The notes under the pieces: generated by a model | The model's database searches: none | The model's input: the letters and a program-made list of their open reading frames with translations, nothing else | Told to the model about the DNA's origin: nothing | Position numbers and translations under genes: made by a program | Source of the DNA: Gemmatimonadota bacterium | Lineage (GTDB): Bacteria; Gemmatimonadota; Gemmatimonadetes; Longimicrobiales; Gaopeijiaceae | Direction: 5' to 3' | NCBI GenBank assembly: GCA_022560615.1 | Contig: JADFSR010000001.1 | Coordinates: 1-64,000, forward strand | Length of the DNA: 64,000 nt | In this document: one piece after another, positions 17,176 through 26,273 of the stretch | Numbering within the stretch: the stretch's first letter is position 1 | Layout: each line of letters begins with the position of its first letter

Positions 17176-17493
17176 CTAGCCCAGTCGCGGAATTGTCATG
17201 TTGTCCAGGAACAGCCGGTCCTTGGGGGACAACGCGTGGATGCCGTCCGAGTCCACCACCAGAAGCAACCGATGTACTTCCTCCTGGTTGAGAGGATGGA
17301 GCTTGGGCAGGGTGATACCGGCCCAGCGCTCTCGATCCTCTTGGTTCCGCACCCCGGCCGAGGAATAGTCTGAGTTCGGGCGCTCAACGCGCCGGGCTGA
17401 CGCGATCTTCTTCGCGCGCCAATGGCGGTACCAGAGCTTGAAAGCGACGCCGCCGATGACGAGCGCCACGGCGGCTTCAATCCAAATAATCAT
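17176..17493 (-). CDS. Small membrane-anchored hypothetical protein
   Basis: 105 residues with one N-terminal helix (MIIWIEAAVALVIGGVAF) followed by a basic stop-transfer stretch (WYRHWRAKK) and a soluble tail of about 75 residues that contains ALSPKDRLFLDNMTIPRLG. ATG 17493 sits right before the helix; GTG 17517 is an alternative that adds eight residues. No family recognised. It lies downstream of the Mre11-Rad50-like gene in the same direction, about 75 bp away. Confidence 0.55.
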   Translation of the reverse strand: MIIWIEAAVALVIGGVAFKLWYRHWRAKKIASARRVERPNSDYSSAGVRNQEDRERWAGITLPKLHPLNQEEVHRLLLVVDSDGIHALSPKDRLFLDNMTIPRLG

Positions 17494-17568
17494 CACACCA
17501 ACAGCGTTTAGAGTCACTACTCGGAGGGCCCACAGACACTCCGTACCTACACCACCGTACGACGAGAG

Positions 17569-20082
17569 CTAGCCCCGAAAGGTTGCGGTTCCACGGGCGG
17601 GCTTGGCAGGCGCCCTCAACAAAGTCCTTCCGGGACCCGCAGCGGCCGGCCGCAAAGCCGGTCCAACACCGGACGCCTCGTCTCGAACCTCGAGTATAGA
17701 ATCGAACAACTCGGGCCGCGCGTCTACCGCCTCCCCACCGCTGAACAGGATCACGCGGGGGATCTCGCTCAACAACGTCTTCGTGAGCACAAGCGTCCTG
17801 ATTCGGGCCTCGATGTCGAGTCGGTCGAAGGGCTCTGACAGCACGAGGGAGCCGAGCAGCTTCCCGTCCGCTGCCACCAGCGAAGCGGCCGCGAGGCGCA
17901 CCGCGATGCGGGCGGTCGCCCGGTCCTCCTCCGAAACGAGCTCGAGCACGCCGCGATCTCCATTCAGAACCGCCTGGCCCGCCACGAGCGACACGGTCAG
18001 AATCCGGCCACCGGAGATTCGGCACAGGAACCGCGAAGAGCGGTCGAGCAGCAGCTCGGTGGCCCTCGCGGAACGCGCTGAACGCACCCTTCGCAGCGCG
18101 TCGACGACCGCGCTCAGCGCGCCGCGGGCCCGAGTCGGCGGCACGGAAACGATCTCCCGCTCGGTGAGCTCGGAGAGGCGCGCGCGCAGCAGCTCGACTC
18201 CCTCGGAGCCGGCCTCCAGCGCTGCGTGGAAGCGAAGCGACTTTCCCTCGAGCTCCTGCAGATGCGACGGTTTGGCCTCGAGCTGCTCCCACCTGCTCTT
18301 CCACCAGCTCCCATCCTGGACGACCGACTCCCACTCTTCGTTCAGCTCGGCCAGCACCTCCTGGTAGTGGCTCTCGAGCACGCGACCGCACGTCGGGCAC
18401 GGCGCGTCGGGTCCCGCCGCCTCCATCTTCTTCAGGCGGGTCCGCACCTCGCGGGCACGATCCCGGTAGGCGTTGAGCGTGGTCTCGGCATCCTGGCGTT
18501 CACGCAACCAACCCATCGTCGCGACCTCGAGATCTCCGTCGGCCTCCACAACATCGGCCCTGAGCCCGCGGAGGTCTCTCTCCGCGGAACGGAACTCGGC
18601 AGCCACCTGTTCCAGGTCGACGCGGACCGCGCCGCGTTCGGGTCGCTCCACGAGCCTAACCGGTGCCACAGGATGGACGGCGGCAATCTCGCCAGCCCTC
18701 AATAGCGCGGCGTCCACGGTGGCGAGACCCCGGCTGGCCGCGACCGCTTCTACGGCGAGCGCGATGGTCTCGTCGAGTGTTTCCGCCCCACGCCCGCTCC
18801 AAAGCCGTCGCAGCGGTCCGGGAGACCCGTCACCACCTTCCTGCACGAGCAGTTCCTCGACGGCTTGACGCGCTTGGGCTCCTCCCCCAATCACGCCGGT
18901 CAGCCCTTTCGGGAGGGACGTGCTGACCCGGCCGACTCCCGGCACGTCCCCGTCGAGGGAGTCGAGAGCCCCGACCGGCTCACGTTCCAGCGTGCCCACG
19001 AGATCGTCCGGCACCAGCTCCATGATCACTTTCCGCGTGGCCTCGGCAAGCAGGCCATCCCGCTCGAGCTCGCCTTCGAGCGCATCGCGGAGAAGCCCCG
19101 GCGCGTCGAGGGGAAGCCAGGCCGCCGGGGGCACGCGCGGCTCCCTGCCGGCCTCAACGGCGAGGTGAAGAGCGCGCTGTCGCAACCCCGCAAGCTGGTC
19201 TCCTTGCAGAGCCAACAGATCCTCGGGAGATGCTCCCTCCAGGCTCAAACGCACGATCTTGCCGTCGATACCTCCAGGAACCTCCGCCATGACCTCCCGC
19301 ACACGCCGCCGCAGGCGGTCGGCGTCACCCGATACGACTTTGATCGGAGCAAGCGCGACGACAGGCCGGCCGGGAATGGCATGGAAGACGACTTCGTCCC
19401 GCTCCAGGTCGACCGTTAGGAATCCCTTCTCGTCCGCAGCCTCGTCCCATGGATCGAGCGCGACGCGCTCCAGCGACCCGGGGTATCGAGCGTTGGCGAT
19501 CACGTCGCGACGCCGGTGCTCCCCTCCCAACGCGATGTAGTCCCACTCGTCGGGATCGACATGCACGCCCCATTCGCCGGCCGAGTCGGTAGAGCCATGA
19601 ATCACGAGTAGGTTCCAGCGCATTTTGGGATCAGATTCTGGGACCGCAGCAGGGTGTCGAACGGTGGCCCGGTACGGGACCAAGCAGGCGTGCAGGTCGA
19701 GTCGCTCCACAAGGATGGAGCGCGTGAGGCCGGTCGCCGCTTCAACGTTGGGGAAGGTGTCGAGCACCGCGAGCGCACCGGGGTCAGCAGGGCGCCGCGG
19801 CGTGTCCCTCGGACCCGAGACCATCAGCACCGGCACTTCCGGTAGCGAGGAGCGAAGCACCTCGAGGCCTCTCGCGAGGGCGACCACCGCGCCCGGCGGC
19901 GGGTCGGGTCGGTCGAAGACGTCCCCTGCCACGACGACAACATCCGGCGCGATCCGAACGAGCTCCTGCACCGCTCGCTCGAACGCTGCGGCGACGTCCC
20001 GTTCACGTAGGTTCACTCCTCGCTCTACGCGTCCGTATGCGCGAAATCCCAGATGGAGGTCGGAGAGGTGCGCGACGATCAC
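17569..20082 (-). CDS. Single-chain Mre11(SbcD)-Rad50(SbcC)-like protein with degraded active sites
   Basis: 837 residues. Residues 1-240 align with Mre11/SbcD: SDLHLG (D8, H10), GDVFD (D54), IHGSTDS (H162). But motif III, normally GNHD, is GPRD (90-93), and motif V, normally GHxH, is GGEH (186-189), so the catalytic His and metal ligands are lost. A coiled coil follows with a Rad50 zinc hook, CPTCG at 562-566. Residues 655-785 resemble the Rad50 C-lobe: a signature-like SEEDRATARIAVRLA and LVLSEPFDRLD (746-755), where the Walker B Asp is Ser749 while Glu750 stays. No Walker A (GxxxxGKT/S) exists anywhere. Canonical SbcD and SbcC are separate proteins of about 400 and 1000 residues. Likely a structural, DNA-tethering or regulatory protein. 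GTG 20082 overlaps the upstream stop by 4 bp. Confidence 0.85.
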   Translation of the reverse strand: MIVAHLSDLHLGFRAYGRVERGVNLRERDVAAAFERAVQELVRIAPDVVVVAGDVFDRPDPPPGAVVALARGLEVLRSSLPEVPVLMVSGPRDTPRRPADPGALAVLDTFPNVEAATGLTRSILVERLDLHACLVPYRATVRHPAAVPESDPKMRWNLLVIHGSTDSAGEWGVHVDPDEWDYIALGGEHRRRDVIANARYPGSLERVALDPWDEAADEKGFLTVDLERDEVVFHAIPGRPVVALAPIKVVSGDADRLRRRVREVMAEVPGGIDGKIVRLSLEGASPEDLLALQGDQLAGLRQRALHLAVEAGREPRVPPAAWLPLDAPGLLRDALEGELERDGLLAEATRKVIMELVPDDLVGTLEREPVGALDSLDGDVPGVGRVSTSLPKGLTGVIGGGAQARQAVEELLVQEGGDGSPGPLRRLWSGRGAETLDETIALAVEAVAASRGLATVDAALLRAGEIAAVHPVAPVRLVERPERGAVRVDLEQVAAEFRSAERDLRGLRADVVEADGDLEVATMGWLRERQDAETTLNAYRDRAREVRTRLKKMEAAGPDAPCPTCGRVLESHYQEVLAELNEEWESVVQDGSWWKSRWEQLEAKPSHLQELEGKSLRFHAALEAGSEGVELLRARLSELTEREIVSVPPTRARGALSAVVDALRRVRSARSARATELLLDRSSRFLCRISGGRILTVSLVAGQAVLNGDRGVLELVSEEDRATARIAVRLAAASLVAADGKLLGSLVLSEPFDRLDIEARIRTLVLTKTLLSEIPRVILFSGGEAVDARPELFDSILEVRDEASGVGPALRPAAAGPGRTLLRAPAKPARGTATFRG

Positions 20083-21377
20083 GTGATGGCAGCGCCCCCG
20101 TTCCGGGCTCGAAATCCCTCGATGAGATCGGTCGCACGGAGTACTGCTTCAGGTCCCGTTACGAGCAGTACCTCCTCCTCACCGCCCTCACGCGCGCGAA
20201 CCAGCGTCACCGTCGACCAACCGTCGACCGCCTCGGTGGCAGGGACGAAGTGGGGTCCCCACACCAGCACTCCACCGGCCGAGACCCGCTGCCCCAACGC
20301 TGACTTCGCTCGGCGGGACAGCCCCCCGGCACCCCCCAACGACGCGAGTGCCGCACCGTCCACCACGACCAAGTCGTAGCCCCCCGAAAGTCCCTCGACG
20401 AGATCGTCGAGGTTGCCGACGGCGACCGACGAGCGCTCAGTGCGTCCCACGCCCAACCCGGTCTCGAAGTGCTCTCTCCCTAGCTCCACCACGGCGCCGA
20501 CACGCTCGAGCACGTCGACTGATCCGGTCGGGTGTTCTAGCACGACCATGCGAGGCAGTGACGACGCACCCCCGCCCACCACCAGGACGCGCCAGGATGC
20601 CTCGAGTGGAGGCATGAGCCCGCGTCCCACCGCGATGTCCCACGGAACGACCGCGTTCTCGGCCGAGAGGCTGATCGCCCGCCGCACGTGCTCACCTTCG
20701 AGCAAGAAGCGCCACACGAGGCCATCCTCCGAGAGTCGCCGGTCCTCCACTCGCACCGGAAAGGCGTTGGCGGAGCGGTTCGCCTTTACTTCGATGTGGA
20801 GGCGAGCGCCCAGCACGACCCCGTACACCATGCCGGCCACGGAGAGCAGCGCGAGGCATCCGATGAGCAGGTAGGAAGGCACCGGCGACCTCGGAAGCAT
20901 GAGCCCGGTGAGGGCGAAGCCGATCGCTGCGCCTATCGCGGCCGCGGCGCCCGGGCCCGCCCGGGGACCTCTGCCGTCGGTCATGGCGGCAGTGGTCATA
21001 CCGCCGAGCACGGTCCCGCAGGCATACAACGGCAATGCGGCCATGATGGCGAGGCCGAATCCTTGACCGATGGCGGTATCCCCAAGCTCCCGAAGCACGC
21101 TCCACGACGTCCCATAAAACGCCGCCGCGAGGAACGAGACCAGACAGAGCACCCACCGGCGGCGTAGGCGGCTCACGAGATCCGGACCAGGACCGGGCGC
21201 GCTCCACAGACCGATCGCGAGCGCCGACGCTTCCACTACCAAGACGGTACTGAGCGACCGCATGAGGCCCGCCCCGGCGTACAACAGCACCCCGACGGCG
21301 ATCTCGGCCGCGGTCGCGCACGCGACTCCCACGAGCAAGGGTGGCAGCCATTCGGCTCGGCGACTACGCGTACTCAC
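20079..21377 (-). CDS. Polytopic membrane protein with spermidine-synthase-like (SAM-fold) C-terminus
   Basis: 432 residues from GTG 21377, which overlaps the flavin reductase stop in a GTGA arrangement. The first 210 residues form about six or seven membrane helices. The soluble half starts near residue 225 and has a methyltransferase-type glycine motif, VLVVGGGASSLPRMV, then SVDVLERVGAVVELG and YDLVVVDGAALASLG, matching the fold of spermidine synthase-like proteins fused to membrane domains. The Asp residues needed for aminopropyl transfer are not clearly preserved. It is the middle gene of a three-gene operon ending in the Mre11-Rad50-like protein; role unknown. Confidence 0.68.
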   Translation of the reverse strand: MSTRSRRAEWLPPLLVGVACATAAEIAVGVLLYAGAGLMRSLSTVLVVEASALAIGLWSAPGPGPDLVSRLRRRWVLCLVSFLAAAFYGTSWSVLRELGDTAIGQGFGLAIMAALPLYACGTVLGGMTTAAMTDGRGPRAGPGAAAAIGAAIGFALTGLMLPRSPVPSYLLIGCLALLSVAGMVYGVVLGARLHIEVKANRSANAFPVRVEDRRLSEDGLVWRFLLEGEHVRRAISLSAENAVVPWDIAVGRGLMPPLEASWRVLVVGGGASSLPRMVVLEHPTGSVDVLERVGAVVELGREHFETGLGVGRTERSSVAVGNLDDLVEGLSGGYDLVVVDGAALASLGGAGGLSRRAKSALGQRVSAGGVLVWGPHFVPATEAVDGWSTVTLVRAREGGEEEVLLVTGPEAVLRATDLIEGFRARNGGAAIT

Positions 21378-21856
21378 GTCGCCACCTTGCCATAGCCGCT
21401 CCCGAAGAAGAGCAGTGCCCCACGGTCCGAGGAACCGGACGCGATAACGCGAGCCAGCACGATTGAGTGATCCCCACCCGGCATCACCCCGCTGGTCACG
21501 CACTCCAACCAAGCCGCGGCCCCATCGAGAACGGGGCTCCCGTCCGATGCCTTACGCCACGCAACCTCCTCGAAACGTGTCTCCGCCGGCTCCGCGGCGA
21601 ACCGCCTGGCGACATCGGCCTGGTCCTCGGCCAACATGCTGACCGCGAACGTTTCGGCGGTGATCAGCTTGTCGTGCGAAGCTGCTCCTCTATCGATACA
21701 GACCAGGATGAGAGGGGGTTCGAGCGACACCGACGTGAATGAACTCACGGTAACGCCCCACATCGCGGACCCGTCCGCATGTGCGGAGACCACTGCTACC
21801 CCCGTCGGGAATCGGCCCATGACCTCCCTGAACTGAAGCGAATCCCGTTGGTTCAT
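21374..21856 (-). CDS. Flavin reductase-like domain protein (FMN-binding)
   Basis: 160 residues from ATG 21856 (AGGG six bases upstream; the frame is open to 21904). The fold signature is clear: FREVMGRFPTGVAVVSA, then WGVTVSSFTSVSLEPPLIL, SHDKLITAETFAVSML and GGDHSIVLARVI. Such proteins reduce FMN/FAD with NAD(P)H, commonly to supply a monooxygenase. First gene of an operon with 4-bp overlaps to the next two. No monooxygenase is present nearby. Confidence 0.87.
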   Translation of the reverse strand: MNQRDSLQFREVMGRFPTGVAVVSAHADGSAMWGVTVSSFTSVSLEPPLILVCIDRGAASHDKLITAETFAVSMLAEDQADVARRFAAEPAETRFEEVAWRKASDGSPVLDGAAAWLECVTSGVMPGGDHSIVLARVIASGSSDRGALLFFGSGYGKVAT

Positions 21857-21979
21857 CAGTTGCCCTAGAACACTTCGCGGCGGCGAGCCAGAATGGCGCG
21901 CCACCGCGTTCTCAGCTTGCCCCCAGAGGGGTCCGCACTAGTTTTCGAGGCCCTGAGCCGTCCCTCCACCGAAGGCCCC

Positions 21980-23880: not shown

Positions 23881-24863
23881 GCCGGATCACGCTGGCGACA
23901 CTCCTCGGAGTGACGCTGCTGACCAGCGTTCTGGCCGGCATCCGCTTCGGTTCGGTGGAGCTGACCACCGCCGAGGTGCTCGCGGCCCTCACCACCGGGG
24001 ACGTGGAGATGCATCGCGACATCGTGCTCCAACTCCGCCTTCCCCGAACACTACTCGGGGTGCTCGTCGGGGGAGGTCTTGCGCTTGCCGGGGCCACCTT
24101 CCAGGCACTGCTGCGCAATCCGTTGGCAGAACCATACATCCTCGGCATCTCCGGCGGTGCGTCGGTCGGTGCCGTTACGGTGCTCGCCTTGGGCTGGGCA
24201 GGACTCGGATCGTGGAGTCTGCCCCTGGCCGCCTTCGCGGGAGCGCTCCTGGCAATCGTGGTGGTATTCCGAGTGGCGACGGCCACCGGCCACGCGATGG
24301 ACGTGCGCGTTTTGCTGCTCGCCGGCGTCGTAGTGGCGGCGTTCTTCTCCGCGTGCATAGCCTTCATACTCTCGGTGTCCTCGGCGCGCACGGTTCAGAG
24401 CGCGGTATTCTGGATGATGGGGAGCCTCGACGCGAGTTGGCAGAGCGTGCTGCTCGCGGCCGTGTACACGGTGCCAGCCGCAGTCGTCCTGATCGGACTC
24501 GCCCGCCCGCTGAATCTCATGGCGATCGGCGAGGAGACCGCCAACTACCTGGGGGCCGACGTCGAAGGGGTGAAACGCACCGCGCTCGTCATCGCCGCCT
24601 TGATCACCGCGGCCGGCGTCGCAGTGGCCGGCGTGATCGGCTTCGTCGGTCTCGTCGTCCCACACACCGTCCGCCTGCTCATCGGGTCGGATCACCGAGC
24701 GCTACTACCGCTCTCTTTCCTGGGTGGCGCCGCGTTTCTCACACTCGCTGACCTGATCGCGCGTTTGGCGCTCGCTCCGAGGGAAATCCCTATCGGTGTG
24801 ATCACCGCCTTCGTGGGTGTCCCGATCTTCCTCGTGCTCCTGCGCCGGAGCGTAGAAGGCTGA
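23877..24863 (+). CDS. FecCD/BtuC-type ABC permease
   Basis: 328 residues from ATG 23877 (ATGA overlap with the binding protein). About ten membrane helices with family blocks LRLPRTLLGVLVGGGLALAG, FQALLRNPLAEPYILGISGG, TANYLGADVEGVKRTA and the cytoplasmic coupling region AGVIGFVGLVVPHTVRLLIG. The stop codon TGA (24861-24863) lies inside the left terminal repeat of the structured element that follows, so the last two or three residues are supplied by the element. The partner ATPase gene comes after the element. Confidence 0.93.
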   Translation: MSRITLATLLGVTLLTSVLAGIRFGSVELTTAEVLAALTTGDVEMHRDIVLQLRLPRTLLGVLVGGGLALAGATFQALLRNPLAEPYILGISGGASVGAVTVLALGWAGLGSWSLPLAAFAGALLAIVVVFRVATATGHAMDVRVLLLAGVVVAAFFSACIAFILSVSSARTVQSAVFWMMGSLDASWQSVLLAAVYTVPAAVVLIGLARPLNLMAIGEETANYLGADVEGVKRTALVIAALITAAGVAVAGVIGFVGLVVPHTVRLLIGSDHRALLPLSFLGGAAFLTLADLIARLALAPREIPIGVITAFVGVPIFLVLLRRSVEG

Positions 24864-25240
24864 TGAAGAAGTACAGTGGGCCGCGCACATGGTGCTTGCG
24901 CGCGTTCAGGCAAGGAACGACGAGGAGTCGTAGCCGAGCGGGCACCGCCGCCGAAGGCGGTGGTCCGACGAGGAGAGACGCAGCATCAGCCGCGCGGGCA
25001 CCGACGCGAAAGCGTTGGTCGCCATGTGCCCAACACCAGGATGAAAGGACACGCATGTCTGTGGGTTGCGGTGGCACGGCCCCATCTCCGTCGTTGGAGC
25101 GTCTCGGAGGAGCTACGGCTACGCCTTCGCCCCTCCGCGACCCGCGCCCTCGGCGCGGGTTCCCCTATGAGGCCGTGGCACCCGGGGACCCGTGCCTATG
25201 CACGGGTGGCGGCCCGCTGTACTTCTTCATCAGCCTTCTA
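24853..25240 (+). mobile_element. Structured repeat element, copy 1 (388 bp, TA-bounded, MITE-like)
   Basis: Begins TAGAAGGCTGATGAAG and ends with the reverse complement; the 32-base ends (24853-24884 and 25209-25240) match at 31 positions. TA at both edges suits a TA target site as used by Tc1/mariner-IS630 transposases. No gene inside. Internal stems: 24885-24892 with 25022-25029; CACCGCC/GGCGGTG (24943-24962); ACGC-GAAA-GCGT (25004-25015, GNRA loop); 25075-25081 with 25171-25177; ACCCGCGCC/GGCGCGGGT (25140-25160); ACCCGTGC/GCACGGGT (25188-25207); and CGTAGCCG (24929) with CGGCTACG (25116). About 155 bp (25059-25213) recurs inverted in copy 2. Confidence 0.85.
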
Positions 25241-25248
25241 GTCGCGAC

Positions 25249-26037
25249 ATGAGATTCGAGGCGAGGAACCTCGTAGTGCGGTATCCCGGCGCACAACGTC
25301 CAGCGCTAGACGGCATCTCGATGACCATTCCGGACGGATGCCTCTACGCCGTGTTGGGGCCCAACGGATCGGGCAAGTCAACGCTCATGCGGTCGATGAT
25401 GGGTGTGCTCAAGCCGACCTCGGGCGGCACCTATATCGATGACCGCGAGGTGGGCACGTGGGACCGTCGTGAGCTGGCACGAGCGGTCGGCGCGGTCGCG
25501 CAGTCGGAAACTCTGTCGTTTCCGCTTACGGTCCGCGAGATGGTCGCCATGGGCCGCTATCCTCATCTTGGGCCTCTCTCCGGTGAAAGTGACGCCGACA
25601 GGGAGGCCGTGGCCGCAGCTCTAGCCGAGTGTGACGTCACTGAGTTCGTGAGCCGAGACGTGACCACGCTCTCAGGGGGAGAGCGCCAGCGCGTGCGGAT
25701 CGCTCGAGCCCTCGCGCAACAGCCGCAGGCGCTCGTGCTCGACGAGCCGACCAAAAGCCTCGACATCCGTCACGAGATGGCGATCCTCGAGTTACTCCGA
25801 CGCTCGGCGGACTCGGGACTCACCGTCGTCGTGGTTACGCACGGCCTCGATCTCGCCGCCCGGTTCGCCGACCGCCTGCTGTTGCTTTCGCAGGGGAGGG
25901 TCGCCGCCGAGGGCACGCCTGCCGAGGTCATGACCGAGCCGACGCTGGCCAGCGTCTATGCGTGGCCGGTATCGGTCACGACGGATCCCGTGTCGGGGAC
26001 TCCGAGAGTCACCCCCCTGCGCCGCGGGCAGGCCTAG
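25249..26037 (+). CDS. ABC importer ATPase, BtuD/FecE type
   Basis: 262 residues. Walker A GPNGSGKSTLM, Q-loop AVAQSETLSF, signature LSGGERQRVRIARALAQ, Walker B ALVLDEPTKSLD, H-loop VVVVTHGLDLA. Energises the BtuC-type permease upstream. ATG 25249 falls 8 bp after the end of element copy 1 with no Shine-Dalgarno; the frame is open 19 codons upstream but those lie in the element. Its TAG stop (26035-26037) is the first three bases of element copy 2, so the gene is exactly bracketed by two inverted copies. Confidence 0.94.
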   Translation: MRFEARNLVVRYPGAQRPALDGISMTIPDGCLYAVLGPNGSGKSTLMRSMMGVLKPTSGGTYIDDREVGTWDRRELARAVGAVAQSETLSFPLTVREMVAMGRYPHLGPLSGESDADREAVAAALAECDVTEFVSRDVTTLSGGERQRVRIARALAQQPQALVLDEPTKSLDIRHEMAILELLRRSADSGLTVVVVTHGLDLAARFADRLLLLSQGRVAAEGTPAEVMTEPTLASVYAWPVSVTTDPVSGTPRVTPLRRGQA

Positions 26038-26273
26038 AAGGGTGATCGGAAAGGGGGGCGGGCCGCCACCCGTGCTGTCGCATGGGTCCCCGAGTGCCAC
26101 GGCCCCAGAGGGCACCCGCGCGCAGCGTGGGTCGCGGAGGGGCGAAGGCGTAGCCGTAGCTCCTCTGAGACGCTCCAACGACGGAGATGGGGCCGTGCCA
26201 CCCCAACCCACAGGGGCGTAAGATCATATCAACCATGATGTTGGGCCCACCCCCCTTTCCGATCACCCTTCTA
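26035..26273 (-). mobile_element. Structured repeat element, copy 2 (239 bp), inverted relative to copy 1
   Basis: Ends are TAGAAGGGTGATCGG and its reverse complement; the 30-base termini (26035-26064, 26244-26273) agree at 29 positions. The core (about 26062-26214), read on the minus strand, follows copy 1 closely, including GCTACGGCTACGCC and the hairpins (one at 26114-26132). The end repeats differ in sequence from copy 1 after the shared TAGAAGG-TGAT start, yet each pairs almost perfectly with its own partner. The left 170-bp part of copy 1 is absent. Confidence 0.85.

Follow-up and report, generated by a model that had tools for sequence, protein, structure and literature searches.

A degenerate Mre11-Rad50 fusion, possibly a double pseudo-enzyme, in one family of Gemmatimonadota

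SbcCD and Mre11-Rad50 act as ATP-dependent nucleases (PMC6265447), and the shares of structure and of catalysis in their function are a long-standing question, usually probed by point mutants. The window analysed in this study, a whole stretch of 64,000 nucleotides from a Gemmatimonadota bacterium, carries a gene in which both subunits are joined in one chain and the motifs of both are altered, and which raises the question of what such a protein may be kept for. The open reading frame is real (837 codons with a GTG start on the minus strand) and is organized as listed below.

17569..20082, minus strand: degenerate Mre11-Rad50 fusion gene (P0001), 837 aa, from the open reading frame, profile matches and predicted fold
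19363..20082, minus strand: Mre11/SbcD metallophosphoesterase core, residues 1-240, from PDB sequence match and motif alignment
18985..19362, minus strand: capping domain and Rad50-binding helix-loop-helix, residues 241-366, assigned by position and by analogy with Mre11
18688..18984, minus strand: shrunken Rad50 N-lobe with the Walker A relic GLTGVIGGGAQAR, residues 367-465, from the model and alignment
18148..18627, minus strand: short antiparallel coil with the zinc hook C562-P-T-C565, residues 486-645, from the model and profile comparison
17683..18120, minus strand: Rad50 C-lobe, residues 655-800, from PDB sequence match, fold match and alignment

Residues 4-288 were found to match SbcD/Mre11 profiles (Mre11_Sulfo, E=1.7e-13; TIGR00619, E=1.7e-11), the hook matched the Rad50 profile PRK03918 (E=4e-4), and a PDB sequence search with the fusion returned Mre11 (E=1.6e-10) and the Rad50 C-lobe (E=0.004). 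With the curated SbcD, Mre11 and Rad50 models the fusion scored well under all the cut-offs (44 bits against 77.65 for TIGR00619), and the general-domain model Metallophos is the only one of these whose own cut-off it passes. The AlphaFold2 monomer, predicted from an 87-row alignment (pLDDT 91.5, pTM 0.89), shows a calcineurin-like phosphoesterase fold with capping domain, followed by three helices (327-341, 347-356 and 359-364) in the helix-loop-helix region. In the Foldseek search with the whole model, Mre11 structures were the best matches, including 3dsd, the H85S mutant bound to branched DNA, while in the viral structure library the best whole-chain matches were phage and giant-virus Mre11-Rad50 fusions. 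Residues after 324, when folded alone, matched Rad50 heads with coiled coil, and the C-terminal half matched 3qkt and 4ncj at E of about 1e-6, with only about 160 columns aligning well. The single chain of Mre11 fold, Rad50 hook and Rad50-like C-lobe, which had been claimed in a preliminary description of this DNA, is thus borne out by profiles, PDB sequences and predicted fold, including the part after residue 330, which is Rad50-like. Neither an Rfam match nor a sigma-70-like promoter was found in the fusion gene region.

The ATPase motifs of the Rad50 half were examined by alignment with the intact partner. A pattern scan of the 837-aa chain found no G....GK[ST], in agreement with the earlier claim that Walker A is absent, but a recognizable relic aligns at 392-406 (GLTGVIGGGAQAR, residues 393-405, in the fusion versus GLTGIIGPNGAGKS in the intact partner), where the model has strand 393-399 and helix 402-415; no Walker A was detected in any family member except for one chance match in L099. 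The ABC signature is reduced to SEED (717-720) versus SGGEED, and the SGGR at 690-693 belongs to the 'LTDGR' element and not to the signature. Walker B and D-loop read LVLSEPFDRLD versus LLILDEVFGSLD, with LVLSEPF at 746-752, the D-loop FDRLD present and the H-loop lost. The serine described at the Walker B aspartate, Ser749, is indeed there in the window, but is confined to this sequence and its nearest kin: Glu occupies the position in 93% of the clade, with the next residue mostly Glu.

The hook, in contrast to these motifs, is kept. It reads CPTC at 562-565 on the tip of an antiparallel coil (model helices 490-559 and 570-644), both cysteines are invariant within the window's clade (27/27), and no part links the degenerate proteins to intact Rad50 better than the hook region does (hhalign profile-profile comparison of hook plus C-lobe, E=1.8e-44). 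The helix-loop-helix and the N-lobe relic rank among the least conserved parts of the clade alignment. The coils had been described as staying together with the hook, but they are cut by about two thirds: each arm has about 70 residues in the model, where intact Rad50 has roughly 230, and an N-lobe of about 165 residues is reduced to one of about 100, as estimated from the alignments. Since only about a third of the coil is left, long-range tethering is unlikely.

For the origin of this protein, we surveyed 146 genomes of the order, 113 of them from the window's family; most are metagenome-assembled, so that absences may represent missed genes. The degenerate protein, encoded by one gene or two, is present in about 93 of the 113 family genomes. 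Two sister families, and most of the genomes searched from other families of the class, carry the ordinary intact pair, in which an Mre11-like protein bearing GNHD and GHYH adjoins a Rad50-like ATPase that has both Walker A and the hook. Relatives with intact motifs were found only as two separate genes and only in other families. The degenerate family sequences form one clade (SH-aLRT 100; support of 100/99 in a second tree), within which fused and split forms are intermingled with at least six changes, and therefore joining or splitting took place repeatedly. Three neighbours of the fusion are listed below.

21374..21904, minus strand: flavin reductase, a conserved neighbour that opens the presumed operon (Flavin_Reduct, E=2.4e-40)
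20079..21512, minus strand: polytopic membrane protein with weak spermidine-synthase/SAM-fold similarity by profile match, conserved neighbour
17176..17517, minus strand: 113-aa protein with N-terminal hydrophobic stretch, 51 bases downstream, conserved beside many fused copies

The first two had been named in the preliminary description and were confirmed as conserved neighbours; the SAM-fold gene lies upstream and overlaps the start of the fusion by 4 bases, its own true start being probably near 21374. The order of flavin reductase, SAM-fold membrane protein, Mre11 and Rad50 is maintained in fused and split loci of the window's family, and also in the sister-family loci L114 and, for the matched part only, L117. 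This shared neighbourhood, together with class-wide orthology, indicates that the fusion is the lineage's own mre11-rad50 locus, altered in place and not a separate gene, a point missed in the earlier description. Sequence comparison establishes that the genes are joined in many family members and that descent is vertical and family-wide, and the motifs of both subunits would most simply have been lost once, at the base of this one Gemmatimonadota family. An extra paralogue next to a working SbcCD is rejected by the same synteny and orthology. We also rejected a mobile or phage origin, for no phage or plasmid record covers the fusion protein, and a defence system, for which PADLOC yields merely weak coil matches.

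A possible intermediate is found in a sister family, in which the Mre11 of locus L114 (genome G030) carries GDRD and GHHP, yet is accompanied by a complete Rad50-like ATPase. This Mre11 places beside the family clade, and an AU test on 26 rows speaks against a position within its sister family (p 0.036), whereas the hook region of L114 clusters with that sister family in a weak hook tree, of which only the main f1 branch was used since six outgroup rows were in the wrong frame. L114 either lost its motifs on its own or preserves the first stage of the loss, and in both cases loss of the nuclease does not require loss of the ATPase. Intact pairs, a nuclease-degenerate pair with intact ATPase, split degenerate forms and fused degenerate forms are therefore all extant in one order.

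Comparison with known systems sets this locus apart. The intact Gemmatimonadota pair, for example L118 (MPE of 384 aa and ATPase of 814 aa), is orthologous to the fusion and shares with it domain order, the hook CPTC, a neighbourhood in some sister loci and the hook-flanking sequence (28% identity; hhalign 100%), but has what the fusion lacks: two genes, GNHD, GHYH, Walker A GPNGAGKST, SGGEED, LLILDEVF and coils about three times longer. The fold of both halves and the hook are likewise common to E. coli SbcCD and archaeal Mre11-Rad50, whereas the window fusion is without motifs for both activities. Vps29 and the small subunits of eukaryotic DNA polymerases are altered metallophosphoesterases, in which an Mre11-like fold has been reported as a protein scaffold, but their context is unrelated and they carry no Rad50 half or hook. 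Fusions of an Mre11-like N-terminus with a Rad50-like C-terminus in one chain, including Mimivirus R555, are described in the available text of PMC3175470; R555 keeps Walker A and B, unlike the window fusion, and those fusions are sporadic, mobile and of separate origin from the canonical pair, whereas the present one is vertical, family-wide, and syntenic and orthologous to the class pair. Partial loss is already seen there, in Anaerostipes and Bacillus phage fusions without one P-loop segment, and loss of both enzymes is not described in that text. Arcadin-4 and the ASRP proteins of archaea share a Rad50-like coiled-coil according to the available part of PMC9389158, which discusses zinc hooks, but they are related to SMC-superfamily ATPases and are without an Mre11 half. 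Our literature search, which covered subscription journals only in small part, found no description of an Mre11-Rad50 without both activities.

For the Mre11 pocket, we number the metal ligands after P. furiosus Mre11 and take D8, H10, D49 and H208 to be those of metal 1. As had been claimed, motif III of the fusion reads GPRD (90-93) in place of GNHD, and motif V GGEH (186-189) in place of GHxH, the replacements being N84 to P91, H85 to R92 and H206 to G187 (P. furiosus residues first). The fusion retains D8 and H10 of motif I, D54 of motif II, H162 of motif IV and H189, which is the second His of motif V. The earlier statement that both active sites are degraded holds for the ATPase motifs and for the metal-2 ligands and the catalytic His, the last two of which are gone, but not for the metal-1 site, which is complete, so that the nuclease site is only half lost. 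The motif losses are common to the relatives, with N84 missing from all 75 distinct sequences of the family, the catalytic His85 changed to Arg in 74 and Asp93 retained in 74; the metal-1 ligands D8, H10, D54 and H189 are conserved without exception in the window clade (29/29) and in 71-74 of the 75 sequences family-wide. The invariant replacement of His85 by Arg marks what the altered pocket needs, and the existence of the Mre11 H85S structure with DNA (3dsd) indicates that losing this His need not abolish binding.

Over eight close pairs the whole-gene dN/dS was 0.03-0.19, with the Mre11 core lowest or near-lowest in most pairs and the N-lobe relic usually least constrained, and almost every copy in this deep family has an open reading frame. 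A pseudogene is rejected by these values and frames, and the product is maintained under strong purifying selection. This pattern indicates that the protein is important, its altered pocket no less so than its hook. The proposal that the tethering parts were kept and catalysis dropped is therefore too simple, because selection holds the Mre11 core as tightly as the hook, the metal-1 site is invariant in the window clade and the coil is cut.

The reading that we tentatively favour, and to which we give somewhat less than an even chance, is that the fusion is a double pseudo-enzyme derived from the lineage's own Mre11-Rad50, acting as an ATP-independent, zinc-hook-dimerized binder of DNA or phosphate ends or as a scaffold. 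The zinc hook, and probably also the Mre11 dimer face, would hold a constitutive dimer, in keeping with other complexes that the Rad50 hook joins constitutively as dimers (PMC6969161). Such a dimer would present two one-metal pockets with the invariant Arg in place of the catalytic His85, each of which could bind a phosphate or a DNA end without cutting it. With no ATP to open or close the heads, the product would sit on DNA ends, branched DNA or a partner protein as a fixed clamp or scaffold with short arms. The conserved flavin reductase and polytopic SAM-fold neighbours speak against the scaffold reading, as they do not point to DNA, and so does the low conservation of the helix-loop-helix and the N-lobe relic.

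The conservation of these neighbours is also in line with a repurposed enzyme, in which the one-metal site with Arg92 and Asp93 would hydrolyse another phosphoester, possibly in concert with the operon partners, while the Rad50 half would only dimerize. Residual chemistry is conceivable, since one of the metal sites is still there and changes of ligand are tolerated by some metallophosphoesterases, and the strong constraint on the Mre11 core together with the invariance of D8, H10, D54, R92, D93 and H189 within the window clade is in agreement with it. We nevertheless consider this unlikely, because N84 and H206, the ligands of metal 2, are missing along with the catalytic His and because further ligands drift in other branches of the family, to an extent hardly tolerable for an enzyme (H162 to Y, R or C; D54 to N in three sequences; H189 gone in four).

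A regulator or antagonist of another Mre11-Rad50, canonical SbcCD or YhaO/YhaN-like, through mixed dimers by the hook or the Mre11 face or through competition for DNA ends, is a further candidate reading. The window's genome carries two further Mre11-like/ATPase pairs, one YhaO/YhaN-like and one beside a SNF2-type helicase; YhaN-like protein is present in 74 of the 113 family genomes and essentially missing from sister families, and canonical SbcD is present in part of the family. However, in eight genomes of 90-97% completeness the degenerate protein is the only SbcD-like match at E up to 1e-5, no clear Rad50-sized P-loop match was found, and the strong AAA_23 matches are mostly of SMC, RecN and RecF size, as judged from length only. 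Furthermore, genus g5, with canonical SbcD, has lost the degenerate protein. The earlier suggestion of a regulator of the real SbcCD is weakened by these findings, and we regard it as quite improbable. As separate observations, the pair beside the SNF2-type helicase (L123, contig C59) carries GDTH and not GHxH at motif V, in surroundings that are possibly a defence or repair island; and in another genome of the family (G079) a second, different pair, L185, with GNHD, GDYH and Walker A GSNESGKS, probably acquired, occurs in the same genome as a degenerate fusion.

Very unlikely in our estimate is a membrane-linked role unrelated to DNA repair, in which the fusion would be the soluble partner of both the SAM-fold protein and the small membrane protein encoded downstream. 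The 4-base overlap and the neighbour order in fused, split and some intact loci agree with such a link, but the same genes flank sister-family Mre11-Rad50 (L114, L117), so that this linkage is older than the motif loss and is not necessarily a sign of the new function. The SAM-fold neighbour matches SpeE models weakly, reads GGGAS where spermidine synthases carry GGGDG, and may be a second degenerate enzyme of the same operon; the C-terminus of the 113-aa protein may resemble the tail domain of bacterial rhomboid proteins. Elsewhere in the window lies an interspersed, MITE-like repeat (24853-25241 and 26034-26213) with 32-base terminal inverted repeats (24853-24884 and 25209-25240, 97%); a 261-base query from it gave 55 matches in its own genome, and one pair flanks an ABC transporter ATPase gene. 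A functionless relic in decay, to which repeated shortening, absence from several genera and the variable N-lobe and linker might point, is hardly credible against the low dN/dS and open frames given above.

Returning to the double pseudo-enzyme, we put forward, as a possibility still short of probable, that a whole family runs its Mre11-Rad50 without nuclease or ATPase, in some species as the sole Mre11-Rad50-like protein, with the structural role split from the enzymology. If this is true, evolution would have separated end binding, bridging and scaffolding from the enzymology of Mre11-Rad50; natural selection seems to have made here the separation otherwise sought with mutants, and to have kept the product. 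The finding suggests that Mre11-Rad50 can serve a cell with neither DNA cleavage nor ATP consumption.
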